Origin: Dissulfuribacter thermophilus
GTDB taxonomy: Bacteria > Desulfobacterota > Dissulfuribacteria > Dissulfuribacterales > Dissulfuribacteraceae
NCBI RefSeq assembly: GCF_001687335.1
Contig: NZ_MAGO01000006.1
Span: 62,001 to 126,000, forward strand
Direction of reading: 5' to 3'
Length of the DNA stretch: 64,000 bases
This document shows, piece by piece, positions 15,167 to 44,049 of this stretch (positions are counted from its first letter, which is position 1; each line of letters starts with the position of its first letter). A model generated the notes under the pieces. That model saw nothing but the letters and a program-made list of their open reading frames with translations, was not told the DNA's origin and searched no databases. The position numbers and the translations under genes are program-made.

Positions 15167-15243
15167 CGGGACGTGGCGCAGTCTGGAAGCGCACCTGAAT
15201 GGGGTTCAGGGGGTCGGAGGTTCAAATCCTCTCGTCCCGACCA
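15167..15243 (+). tRNA. tRNA-Pro (anticodon GGG)
   Basis: This 77-nt tRNA has a 7-bp acceptor stem CGGGACG/CGTCCCG, D arm GGCGCAGTCTGGAAGCGC, anticodon stem CCTGA/TCAGG with loop ATGGGGT (anticodon GGG), T arm GGAGGTTCAAATCCTCT and an encoded CCA. It is strongly similar to enterobacterial tRNA-Pro(GGG). Confidence 0.97.
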
Positions 15244-15277
15244 AATATCCTAAGTAAGAATGAATGGAGGGCGTGCC

Positions 15278-15730
15278 ATGGGCGCAAGTTTAACAGCAGG
15301 CCTTTCGGTCAACCATATGGCATGTTCCCAGGGAGACTATCCTGGTGAGCAGAGAGAGCAGTGCCTTGGCACACATTTGCTAGTTGAGCTGTGGAGTGCT
15401 CCATTCCCAAAGCTTGCAGATGCCCGGCAGATTCAAGAGATTTTAGGCAAGGCTGGGGCCTGCGACAACGGAATGGGTACGGATAGTCCTGCTGAGGTTA
15501 GAGTGCATCAGTTTGATCCGTACGGTGTTTCAGGAACTGCCAGCAGCCCATTGGCCCACATACTCATTCATACATGGCCTGAGAATAGGTATGCTGCTGT
15601 GGACATCTTCTCTCATGGAAGAGATGATGCTTACCTAGTTCTTGAACGTATGAAAGAGGCCCTTTGTCCAGAATATGTACACGTTTTGGAAATGAAAAGA
15701 GGCCAATTACTTGATATGGAGGACACTTGA
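15278..15730 (+). CDS. AdoMet decarboxylase (SpeD) homologue without the pyruvoyl serine
   Basis: This 150-residue protein clearly has the SpeD fold: LGTHLLVELW, HQFDPYGVSG and IHTWPENRYAAVDIF match the prokaryotic AdoMet decarboxylase proenzyme. In that family a Glu-Ser bond (E62-S63, T. maritima numbering) self-cleaves to make the catalytic pyruvoyl group and Cys83 is a proton donor. Here the segment reads SSPLAHILIHTWPE: Leu replaces Glu62, Ala replaces Ser63 and His replaces Cys83, while Ser55, His64 and His68 remain. Self-processing and normal decarboxylation are therefore not expected. The ATG at 15278 is chosen for its GGAGG. The stop overlaps the next gene, an aminopropyltransferase-like protein, by 4 nt. 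Confidence 0.85.
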   Translation: MGASLTAGLSVNHMACSQGDYPGEQREQCLGTHLLVELWSAPFPKLADARQIQEILGKAGACDNGMGTDSPAEVRVHQFDPYGVSGTASSPLAHILIHTWPENRYAAVDIFSHGRDDAYLVLERMKEALCPEYVHVLEMKRGQLLDMEDT

Positions 15731-16596
15731 CTCGAACAATTTGGTCCGAGCGAATTGGACCCGGATATCTTCATTGCTATGAGGCGGAACTTCTTTATGA
15801 GGAGAGGACTAAGTACCAACACATGGTCCTCTTTCACAACCCTCTCTTTGGCCGCTGCCTCGTCCTTGATGGCATAGTTCAGTTGACCCAAAAGGACGAA
15901 TTTATCTATCATGAGATGTTCGTCCATTGTCCTTTTCTGGGGTTACGTTCCACGCCTGAATCAGTTCTCATCATAGGCGGAGCAGACGGAGGGGTACTTA
16001 GAGAAGTCCTTACATACGAAGAAGTTAAGCGGGTTGTTCATGTAGAAATTGATGAGGCTGTATTAAAGGCGTGTAAAAAGTATTTGCCTGAAGTATGCGG
16101 TGATTGGAATGATCCCAGAGTAGAGCTCATAATAGGGGACGGGGCAAAATATGTAAAAGAGGCAAAAGAAAGGGGAGAAAAGTTCGATTGCATTCTTTTA
16201 GATTCCACTGACCCAGTTGGACCGGCAATCGTACTTTTTGAACCGCCTTTTCATAAAGACCTGTTTGATATCTTGAACGATGGCGGAGTGGTAGTACGCC
16301 AATCAGGGCTTCCACTTACTATGCCAAAGGTAATGCCTTTTGTTTTTAAAAGATTTCAGGATTTTTTCCAAACCGTAGAGGTCTATAGGGCTCCGGTACC
16401 AACCTACGGTGATGAAATGGCATTTGTTGCCGCTACAAAAGGTCCACAGGGTATTTCAAAGTCCAATAAAGAGAGGGTAGGGCGTTTTTATAATCCCAAG
16501 ATACATGAGGCAGCCTTTGCCCTTCCCACGTGGTGGACAGAACTAATAGATAACTTTGAGGATACTGGCGAGGTGCCTATAGATTCTCTCTATTGA
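15727..16596 (+). CDS. Spermidine synthase-like aminopropyltransferase, variant active site
   Basis: This 289-residue SpeE-family protein has an N-terminal beta domain and a Rossmann methyltransferase-like fold. Family landmarks are LDGIVQLTQKDEFIYHEM, IGGADGGVLREV (usually GGGDGG) and LDSTDPVGPA. Where typical SpeE reads QSESP or similar, this reads RQSGLPLTMP, so the amine pocket may differ. It starts with TTG at 15727 behind GGAGG and overlaps the SpeD-like gene. A second, canonical SpeE lies at 43189-44049. Spermidine synthase is the default annotation; a different amine or a regulatory pairing with the SpeD-like partner is plausible. Confidence 0.85.
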   Translation: MTRTIWSERIGPGYLHCYEAELLYEERTKYQHMVLFHNPLFGRCLVLDGIVQLTQKDEFIYHEMFVHCPFLGLRSTPESVLIIGGADGGVLREVLTYEEVKRVVHVEIDEAVLKACKKYLPEVCGDWNDPRVELIIGDGAKYVKEAKERGEKFDCILLDSTDPVGPAIVLFEPPFHKDLFDILNDGGVVVRQSGLPLTMPKVMPFVFKRFQDFFQTVEVYRAPVPTYGDEMAFVAATKGPQGISKSNKERVGRFYNPKIHEAAFALPTWWTELIDNFEDTGEVPIDSLY

Positions 16597-17399
16597 TGAT
16601 TGCCTTTTTAAGTGATTTTGGGCATGCAGATCCATATGTGGGTATAGTTAAAGGAGTAATTCACTCCATAGTAAATGATACCCACGTCATCGACCTTACG
16701 CATGAGATAGAGCCTGGAAATATCTTCCAGGCTTCTTTTGTCTTGGGCATTTCCTATAAGTATTTCCCAAAGGGTACCATATTCCTTTGTGTTGTAGATC
16801 CAGGAGTTGGTTCTAATAGAAGGGGAATTGTCGGAGCTGGGGGAGGATATTTTTTTGTAGGGCCTGATAACGGAATTTTTAGCCATGTATCCAATGAGTT
16901 AGACCTTAAATTTTTTGAAATCAAAAATAAAAATCTCTTTCTCCCAGAAGTTAGCGTAACTTTTCATGGAAGAGATGTCTTTGGACCAGTCGCAGCACAC
17001 TTAGAAAAAGGAGTTCCTTTAGAAGATATAGGTCCAGGAGTTGAGGACATCACCATCTTAAATATTCCAAAGCCTATCAAGAGGGGGGACTCGATCCAGG
17101 GAGAAATTCTCTATTTCGACAGATTCGGCAATGCAATTACAAACATTCCTCTAGATCTCTTTGATGGTTCAGGTAAACAAGACGTAAAAAGTCTATGTGT
17201 ATCTGTAAAAGGACATAAGTTCCCAGTGGTTGACTGTTATGAATCTGGGAAGGGGAAAGGGGTCTTTGGTATCCTCGGAAGTCATGGATTCCTTGAGCTA
17301 TCTGTTTATTTGGGAAGTGTAAGGAGTAAGTTGGAAATTAATAGGGGAGACAAGGTAGAAGTTAAAAGTGTGGAGTGTTTTAGAAGTGTTGAGTTTTGA
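16596..17399 (+). CDS. SAM hydrolase (SAM hydroxide adenosyltransferase, DUF62 family)
   Basis: This 267-residue member of the fluorinase/chlorinase superfamily (DUF62) is of the type that hydrolyses S-adenosylmethionine to adenosine and methionine. Near the N-terminus IAFLSDFGHADPYVG carries the catalytic Asp, VDPGVGSNRRG follows, and TFHGRDVFGPVAAHL supplies the Arg and His of the Asp-Arg-His set; the C-terminal beta domain begins after about residue 165. The ATG at 16596 overlaps the SpeE-like stop by 1 nt. The last residues, FRSVEF, are encoded by the start of the dispersed repeat. All three genes of this unit belong to families that use SAM or its derivatives. Confidence 0.9.
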   Translation: MIAFLSDFGHADPYVGIVKGVIHSIVNDTHVIDLTHEIEPGNIFQASFVLGISYKYFPKGTIFLCVVDPGVGSNRRGIVGAGGGYFFVGPDNGIFSHVSNELDLKFFEIKNKNLFLPEVSVTFHGRDVFGPVAAHLEKGVPLEDIGPGVEDITILNIPKPIKRGDSIQGEILYFDRFGNAITNIPLDLFDGSGKQDVKSLCVSVKGHKFPVVDCYESGKGKGVFGILGSHGFLELSVYLGSVRSKLEINRGDKVEVKSVECFRSVEF

Positions 17400-43188: not shown

Positions 43189-44049
43189 ATGGAACTTTGG
43201 TACACAGAATTACACACAAAAGGATCTGGAATTTGTTTTAAGGTGAAGGAGACACTCTTTAAAAAGCATTCCAAGTTTCAAGAAGTAACTGTGTTAGATA
43301 CAGAAGACTATGGACGCATGCTGGTAATTGATGGCCTTGTGATGCTCACAGAAAGAGATGAATTCATATATCACGAAATGATGGCACATCCAGCCTTATT
43401 CCTCCATAGATCCCCAGAAAACGTGCTCGTAATTGGAGGGGGAGACGGCGGTACTGTAAGAGAAGTAGCAAGACACAAGGCAGTTAAAAGTATAACTCTT
43501 TGCGAAATTGATGATGTGGTCTTGGATGTGGCCAAGAAATTTTTCCCCAATCTCTCAACTCAACTCTTTTCAGACAACAGGGTGGAGATAATAGTTGATG
43601 ATGCATCAAAACATATAAAAGACAAAAAAGAGAATTACGATGTCATTTTAGTAGATTCCTCAGACCCCGTTGGACCAGCTGAAAATCTTTTTAAAAGAGA
43701 TTTTTTCGAATCCCTCAAAAAATCATTAAAACCTGACGGAATAGTGGTTTTACAGAGCGAATCACCATTTTATCACCTGGATATCATAAAAAATGTTCGG
43801 GAAAATCTGCTTGGAGCCGGTTTTGATAATGTACTATTCTATTGGGCACACATTCCAACCTATCCAGGTGGTGTGTGGTGCTGGGCCATTGCATCTTGCA
43901 CGTATCATCCAATAAAGGATTTTTCTCTCGAGGGCAAAGATTTTAACATGGAGTTAAAGTACTATAGCCCTGAAATCCACAAGGCCTCCTTTATACTGCC
44001 AGAATACTTTAAAAGAGCGCTTTCGGAAGTGTTGAGTTTTGAGTTTTGA
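43189..44049 (+). CDS. speE: Spermidine synthase (canonical aminopropyltransferase)
   Basis: This 286-residue SpeE has the standard motifs: MELWYTELHTKG start, DGLVMLTERDEFIYHEM, VIGGGDGGTVREV, VDSSDPVGPAENLF, LQSESPFYH and HIPTYPGGVWCW. It would transfer an aminopropyl group from decarboxylated SAM to putrescine or another diamine. Unlike the SpeE-like protein at 15727 it keeps GGGDGG and QSESP. Its last six residues, VLSFEF, and the stop codon are encoded by the dispersed heptad repeat. No functional speD is in the window. Confidence 0.94.
   Translation: MELWYTELHTKGSGICFKVKETLFKKHSKFQEVTVLDTEDYGRMLVIDGLVMLTERDEFIYHEMMAHPALFLHRSPENVLVIGGGDGGTVREVARHKAVKSITLCEIDDVVLDVAKKFFPNLSTQLFSDNRVEIIVDDASKHIKDKKENYDVILVDSSDPVGPAENLFKRDFFESLKKSLKPDGIVVLQSESPFYHLDIIKNVRENLLGAGFDNVLFYWAHIPTYPGGVWCWAIASCTYHPIKDFSLEGKDFNMELKYYSPEIHKASFILPEYFKRALSEVLSFEF

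Follow-up and report, generated by a model that had tools for sequence, protein, structure and literature searches.

A SpeD homologue without its own pyruvoyl-forming site, predicted to act as one subunit of a split adenosylmethionine decarboxylase in Thermodesulfobacteriota

Background

Can a SpeD protein that has lost the residues from which the pyruvoyl cofactor is made still take part in the decarboxylation of S-adenosylmethionine (SAM), and if so, with which partner? The question is raised by an open reading frame, designated pSpeD, in a 64,000-nucleotide stretch of Dissulfuribacter thermophilus DNA (the window), where it precedes a speE-like gene. Unless pSpeD or human positions are named, residues are given in T. 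maritima numbering (Glu62, Ser63, Cys83 and so on).

The dimer of class 1b adenosylmethionine decarboxylase (AdoMetDC) consists of two alpha/beta half-sandwiches. One protomer contributes the pyruvoyl group, its Glu and the proton-donating Cys to each active site, while the other provides the residues for adenine stacking, proenzyme processing and ribose holding. The N-half set consists of Ser and Cys, the C-half set of the His in strand 12 and the Glu that binds the ribose; Phe49, Ser55, His68 and Glu72 of T. maritima SpeD act across the dimer, a trans/cis division taken here from published structure reviews and from motif spacing. The product, decarboxylated SAM (dcSAM), is needed by SpeE. 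To our knowledge, the origin of the dead half of the eukaryotic enzyme is debated and only fused bacterial models of it have been described.

In eukaryotic AdoMetDC, each half of the sandwich supplies part of the active site (PMC1282579; see PMC5201418), and autoproteolysis no longer takes place in the C-half (PMC1282579). In prokaryotes two identical protomers form the sandwich, so that a single SpeD chain has both residue sets; the roles of the strand-12 His and Glu are described in the same work (PMC1282579). A literature search returned no stand-alone bacterial dead SpeD and no heteromeric class 1b AdoMetDC; Thermus thermophilus, which has SpeD1 and SpeD2, the former called SAM-decarboxylase-like, may hold a precedent.

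Results

pSpeD is a full-length SpeD homologue without the pyruvoyl-forming site

The features of the locus are collected in Table 1. In a profile search, pSpeD matched PF02675 at 3.1e-24 with positions 1-107 of 107 covered, and sequence alignment to T. maritima SpeD (1tmi, 1vr7, 1tlu) gave about 1e-17. The AlphaFold2 model has a pLDDT of 84.9 (core >95); T. maritima SpeD was its top Foldseek match (3.7e-12), followed by Aquifex SpeD, potato and human AdoMetDC, an AdoMetDC/prozyme complex and human spermine synthase. PF02675, AlphaFold2 and Foldseek together establish the SpeD fold and homology over the full length. Alignment to 1tmi places GVSG and IHTWPE in register with T. maritima SpeD, converts SES-H to an SPLA-H-like sequence and FTCGED to FSHGRD, and so upholds what the initial annotation had read from the letters: a SpeD homologue with its motifs in the normal register, in which Leu-Ala replaces Glu62-Ser63 and His replaces Cys83. 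Judged by these residues, pSpeD is unable to make its own pyruvoyl group, as had been claimed. Its TIGR03330 score (76.6) passes the cut-off of 75.65 by one bit, so that automatic annotation would call it an active adenosylmethionine decarboxylase.

Table 1. Features of the pSpeD locus and the second spermidine synthase gene in the window
Feature	Position	Strand	Remarks
tRNA-Pro(GGG)	15167..15243	+	just upstream of pSpeD
GGAGGG, Shine-Dalgarno-like	15266..15271	+	before the pSpeD ATG; read from letters
pSpeD	15278..15730	+	150 aa, open frame; pseudoenzyme with the SpeD fold, predicted to be the substrate-side half of an AdoMetDC heterodimer
Phe79...Ser85	15512..15532	+	T. maritima Phe49...Ser55, human Phe223...Ser229; substrate side, kept in 45/45
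Leu92-Ala93 for Glu62-Ser63	15551..15556	+	codons TTG GCC; pyruvoyl-forming site lost; 1tmi alignment, clade counts
His98...Glu102 (HTWPE)	15569..15583	+	T. maritima His68...Glu72, human His243...Glu247; substrate side, kept in 45/45
His113 for Cys83	15614..15616	+	codon CAT; proton donor lost; 1tmi alignment, clade counts
GGAGGA, ribosome-binding-like for speE2, and TTGA stop/start overlap	15718..15730	+	in the pSpeD C-terminus; read from letters
SpeE2, aminopropyltransferase	15727..16596	+	PF01564 3.3e-51; NF002010 and TIGR00417 above cut-off; overlaps pSpeD
SAM hydroxide adenosyltransferase (SAM hydrolase) family gene	16593..17399	+	PF01887 2.1e-53; overlaps speE2
SpeE1, second, more canonical spermidine synthase	43189..44049	+	TIGR00417 339.8 bits

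One residue set is largely lost and the other kept throughout a clade

Among 60 related genomes searched, 27 others belonging to the order have pSpeD orthologues (48-85% identity), and a named-genome scan and phylum survey added relatives from Thermodesulfobacterium, Caldimicrobium and Thermodesulfatator. The 45 distinct sequences, found only in Thermodesulfobacteriota, form a single clade (SH-aLRT 99), which in the tree is joined to canonical SpeD and not to SpeDx, the second SpeD treated below. Cys83 is absent from all 45 members, 12 residue types standing in its place, and Glu62 survives in two, with 15 residue types at that position; Ser63 is present in five and so is not lost throughout the clade. 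Phe49, Ser55, His68 and Glu72 are each found in 45/45. Since Ser63 and Cys83 are both retained in 148/148 homologues outside the clade that were returned by the same query (68 cellular, 80 viral), their loss within it goes beyond chance. No pSpeD was found on viral contigs among the best 80 relatives, all of which have Ser63 and Cys83 and are at most 40% identical.

Of the residues that mark a class 1b AdoMetDC, pSpeD has neither the Glu62-Ser63 pair nor Cys83, and of the Ser63, His68 and Cys83 of the SpeD-derived decarboxylases SpeDA and SpeDC (PMC10407285) it retains only His68. By its sequence it carries the C-half residue set without the N-half set: Phe, Ser, His and Glu are present, and the cleavage Ser and the Cys are not. 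Residues 219-259 of PDB 1msv contain the motif of the human C-half, Phe223-x-Pro-x-Gly-x-Ser229 ... Ile-His243-x-x-Pro-Glu247, and its pSpeD counterpart is Phe79-x-Pro-x-Gly-x-Ser85 ... Ile-His98-x-x-Pro-Glu102. A pSpeD profile run against the PDB detected no eukaryotic AdoMetDC, the credible matches being prokaryotic SpeD; the human mapping therefore draws on motif spacing, residue numbers and PMC1282579.

The five members with Ser63 (L168 in G276, and L173, L175, L176 and L198 of the Thermodesulfobacterium type) have Ser or Glu in place of Cys83. They are possibly intermediates of the loss, or may still cleave themselves.

The gene is retained

Absence of key catalytic residues is what a decaying pseudogene or a sequencing artefact might leave, and an error at the TTGGCC codons was one way in which the initial reading could have failed. 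Both are rejected, and the chance that either accounts for pSpeD is negligible. Sequencing error is ruled out as the cause by orthologues from over 25 further genomes of the order, which also lack Cys83 and none of which has Ser63; the same losses run through more than 40 distinct sequences with intact frames, the clade alignment has 27 invariant columns, and the predicted fold is confident. Against its nearest relatives pSpeD has a low dN with saturated dS (dN 0.10 against G002; 0.12 for the neighbouring speE). pSpeD is under purifying selection, and the view that it is a retained, non-decaying gene is borne out by this and by its conservation across the clade.

Neighbouring genes are frequent companions but missing from some pSpeD genomes

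The whole genome has only two PF01564 genes, SpeE1 and SpeE2. The TGA of pSpeD (15728-15730) overlaps the TTG start of speE2 at 15727, and this -4 overlap recurs in most relatives; the pair is probably coupled in translation. The intact frame that had been reported, and its overlap with a SpeE-like gene, are confirmed. Six genomes nevertheless have pSpeD with no speE beside it (G006, G007, G009, G012, G014, G016). Among them, G006 is a single-contig genome that also lacks the SAM hydrolase gene, and in G012 pSpeD and SpeDx are present but no SpeE was found. pSpeD often has the SAM hydrolase gene nearby, but that gene is dispensable, being missing from the pSpeD-bearing G006 and G012. SpeE2 or the SAM hydrolase as sole partner is disfavoured, both being absent from genomes with pSpeD.

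In several speE2-less genomes the SAM hydrolase gene stays beside pSpeD (L013, L018, L021, L023). The C-terminal Glu-Asp-Thr of pSpeD, which overlaps the ribosome-binding site and start of speE2, is present in five of the six speE-less loci, the sixth (L032) ending in Lys-Asp-Thr. A downstream speE was considered as the reason for this ending and is made less likely by the same count; the tripeptide may instead be kept at the protein level.

A second SpeD accompanies pSpeD

A PF02675 search of the rest of the genome for a canonical speD, as had been suggested, returned one other SpeD gene, at C4:193667 (contig C4; reading frame 193631-194071). This protein, SpeDx, falls in a separate clade of the tree, outside the canonical group, and no canonical SpeD was found elsewhere in the genome. 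All of Glu62, Ser63, Ser55, His68 and Cys83 are present in 47/47 SpeDx sequences, in which position 49 is Tyr and position 72 Glu, Asp or Leu. Across the whole order, as well as in several further families, SpeDx has an agmatinase gene next to it.

SpeDx is found in 26 of the 28 pSpeD genomes of the order (Fisher p = 1.8e-7, uncorrected for kinship); the two without it are 88% and 55% complete. Outside the order it is present in 13/13 examined pSpeD genomes, a sample chosen for holding SpeDx, so that the independent evidence there comes only from the named genomes fetched by pSpeD. Ten of these 11, which overlap in part with the bins counted within the order, have SpeDx, and the exception is a 1.3-Mb partial bin. 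The two genes were never seen adjoining one another, the usual neighbour of pSpeD being speE2. Given the six genomes with pSpeD and no speE beside it, and SpeDx in 26/28, SpeDx is on these genomic data most likely the partner of pSpeD rather than the SpeE-like neighbour. Of the earlier picture of a retained, repurposed and SpeE-linked protein, the retention stands and the SpeE-like partner is less likely. A dead pSpeD and an intact SpeD-family paralogue in the same genome are also the arrangement of the trypanosomatid prozyme, a useful analogy that the initial annotation had drawn.

One bin, G341 (Caldimicrobium sp. SKYB6; L271, L278, L288, L289), has two SpeDx and two pSpeD, reflecting either a joint duplication of both partners or a mixture of two strains. 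Outside the order, SpeDx repeatedly has as a neighbour a CBS/CorC_HlyC protein that is similar to PaeA, a polyamine exporter, in the C-terminal part of the latter (L152, L153, L158, L159, L160, L151, L076).

The source of decarboxylated SAM and of agmatine

No canonical SpeD was found in the pSpeD genomes examined. Outside the order, a true SpeE (a PF01564 protein of ordinary length) was found in 13/13 genomes that have SpeDx and pSpeD and in 9/9 with SpeDx and canonical SpeD, but in only 1 of the 14 with SpeDx only; these counts, uncorrected for phylogeny, indicate that pSpeD, though unable to carry a pyruvoyl group, fills the place of the canonical AdoMetDC. There are genomes of another kind. 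G282 has SpeDx and a 343-aa SpeE and no other SpeD, and G004, G008 and G018 (86-90% complete) have SpeDx and SpeE with no pSpeD found. The last three lack the entire pSpeD-speE2-SAM hydrolase block, and one of them has a congener with pSpeD (G021).

Searches of the genome itself (G000) and 11 relatives found no PF01862 (pyruvoyl) arginine decarboxylase and no OKR-type PF01276 enzyme above cut-off. The sole PF02784 protein of G000 is the LysA beside DapF; a PF02784 protein of comparable size is present in every one of the 11 relatives, one of which has three. No known PLP or PvlArgDC arginine/ornithine decarboxylase was found in the genome. In the SpeDx-only genome G084, SpeDx adjoins the gene for 1,9-bis(guanidino)-5-aza-nonane synthase, an agmatine-using enzyme of the homospermidine route, near an agmatinase gene, and a SpeD-derived arginine decarboxylase has been proven in such a gene arrangement (PMC10407285). 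SpeDx shares with SpeDA the retained Ser63, His68 and Cys83 and stands next to agmatinase or in genomes without SpeE and SpeA/SpeC, the SpeA/SpeC absence referring to G000 and its relatives. Its sequence and context resemble those of SpeD-derived arginine decarboxylases, and it looks like the arginine decarboxylase of these organisms.

Thermodesulfobacterium hveragerdense has SpeDx and pSpeD as its only SpeDs. Its congener T. thermophilum was chosen for study as a spermine/thermospermine accumulator, and the spermidine and thermospermine synthases of that species work in E. coli (PMC11107197).

Discussion

A predicted heterodimer and its rivals

pSpeD has lost the pyruvoyl-side set and kept the substrate-side set; lacking the former, it cannot host a pyruvoyl group, yet could complete the site of a partner that bears one. 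The candidate partner is SpeDx, with its Ser, Glu and Cys, encoded beside agmatinase. On balance we consider it probable that pSpeD and SpeDx together form a heterodimeric AdoMetDC, a split counterpart of the eukaryotic enzyme with pSpeD as its catalytically dead subunit. In the simplest model, a SpeDA-like SpeDx homodimer would turn arginine into agmatine and SpeDx:pSpeD would decarboxylate SAM, thereby feeding SpeE1 and SpeE2. Such a choice of substrate by subunit exchange is a proposal that we put forward more tentatively. Physical pairing, the activity of each species and the assignment of substrates are here inferred. An allosteric partner, a SAM-binding subunit and a different enzyme had all been envisaged for pSpeD; as the residues retained are exactly those lent to a partner's site, a half-site subunit of a working decarboxylase is favoured over an unrelated new enzyme.

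The strongest competitor, although we hold it unlikely, is that SpeDx itself is the AdoMetDC, or acts on both SAM and arginine, and that pSpeD is a regulatory or stabilising paralogue which binds SpeDx or free SAM/dcSAM and resembles less an active-site half than the prozyme, a dead AdoMetDC paralogue that activates its partner about 1000-fold (PMC5201418). Every catalytic residue is present in SpeDx, and a homodimer with Ser55, His68 and usually Glu72 could in principle decarboxylate SAM alone; G282, G004, G008 and G018 speak for this, although the last three are incomplete. Of the 14 genomes outside the order with SpeDx only, however, 13 have no true SpeE, SpeDx lies beside agmatinase or an enzyme that uses agmatine, and the 12 genomes contain no other arginine decarboxylase among the families searched. 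A purely allosteric subunit, moreover, needs no four invariant substrate-side residues.

Two further readings turn to the neighbouring genes, and both match the genetics less well than a SpeDx:pSpeD heterodimer. That pSpeD is a structural partner of SpeE2, as an unfused counterpart of the AdoMetDC-like N-terminal dimerisation domain of human spermine synthase, is improbable, even though the stop/start overlap is found in most genomes, Foldseek matches human spermine synthase 3c6k at 2e-4, and animal spermine synthase derives from a bacterial AdoMetDC-aminopropyltransferase fusion whose AdoMetDC function was lost (PMC12803844). The six genomes without an adjacent speE, one of them a single contig and another (G012) with no SpeE found, speak against it, as does the human domain being SpeD-like in structure and not in sequence, unlike the invariant residues of pSpeD; the link to SpeDx and the source of dcSAM would also be left unexplained. 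More doubtful still is a sensor of SAM, dcSAM or MTA, or a different, non-decarboxylating enzyme, working with SpeE2 and the neighbouring SAM hydrolase. The retained nucleoside-binding residues and the often adjacent SAM hydroxide adenosyltransferase gene would suit such a role, but that gene is missing from G006 and G012, no new conserved catalytic set is seen, the invariant active-site positions being the old SpeD ones, and again the link to SpeDx would go unexplained.

Comparison with known systems

With class 1b AdoMetDC (T. maritima TM0655; PDB 1tlu/1vr7/1tmi), pSpeD shares fold, length, 36-38% identity in the structural match, Phe49/Ser55/His68/Glu72 and linkage to speE; unlike it, pSpeD lacks Ser63, Glu62 and Cys83, and hence self-processing and product protonation. 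The C-half of eukaryotic class 2 AdoMetDC (human AMD1, potato) likewise has F-x-P-x-G-x-S and I-H-x-x-P-E without a self-cleaving Ser or a Cys, and pSpeD is predicted to do as it does, completing the site of a half that bears the pyruvoyl group. Class 2 enzymes, however, hold both halves in one polypeptide, whereas pSpeD is a 150-aa stand-alone reading frame with a predicted partner encoded elsewhere and, we infer, a separate origin. The trypanosomatid prozyme is also a dead paralogue, and pSpeD is predicted to activate AdoMetDC by heterodimerising; the prozyme has the complete two-domain build of class 2 and exerts its effect by allostery, while pSpeD is of half size and class 1b, has no class 2 architecture with a dimerisation domain and is predicted to share an active site.

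SpeDA and SpeDC are pyruvoyl enzymes that arose from SpeD and decarboxylate arginine and ornithine, respectively (Li et al. 2023). Their genomes can also contain two divergent SpeDs, and SpeDx matches the SpeDA context; those enzymes have the Ser, His and Cys, and pSpeD does not have all three. The N-terminal domain of human spermine synthase (PDB 3c6k) is another degenerate SpeD fold tied to an aminopropyltransferase. It is fused to its enzyme and diverged in sequence, whereas pSpeD is still present in six genomes that have no speE beside it.

The nearest described case to pSpeD is in Victivallis vadensis, where a degenerate, non-cleaving SpeD-type domain is fused behind an active SpeD (PMC10407285). 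Here, too, a bacterial non-cleaving domain is paired with an active one, but it is fused and described as a defunct SpeDC remnant, while pSpeD stands alone, belongs to another lineage and has the substrate-side residues. The earlier statement that no bacterial equivalent in such an operon was known must be qualified by this fused relative, and holds for a stand-alone gene in the literature searched.

Should the heterodimer exist, a whole group of Thermodesulfobacteriota would make its polyamine precursor with a split enzyme, one that has been hidden from annotation because the dead subunit is named AdoMetDC and its partner resembles an enzyme that decarboxylates arginine. Two bacterial genes would then encode what eukaryotic AdoMetDC holds in one chain, and the dead half would have a natural counterpart that stands alone, a living model for its rise. 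The enzyme would also change substrate by a swap of partner, a question that two small genes make testable.

Two other departures from the SpeD pattern were seen. A separate, unrelated degenerate SpeD (L075:2651; G050:C36:2822-3154) has Gly for Ser63, Ala for His68 and Tyr for Cys83 and sits on a very long branch; it is hit in both half-site sets, unlike pSpeD, and G050 also has a canonical SpeD. In G116 and G141 (L146, L147), a SpeD beside or near speE has Ser for Cys83 with Glu62-Ser63 retained, and in the sister genome G083 (L145) the SpeD has the Cys.
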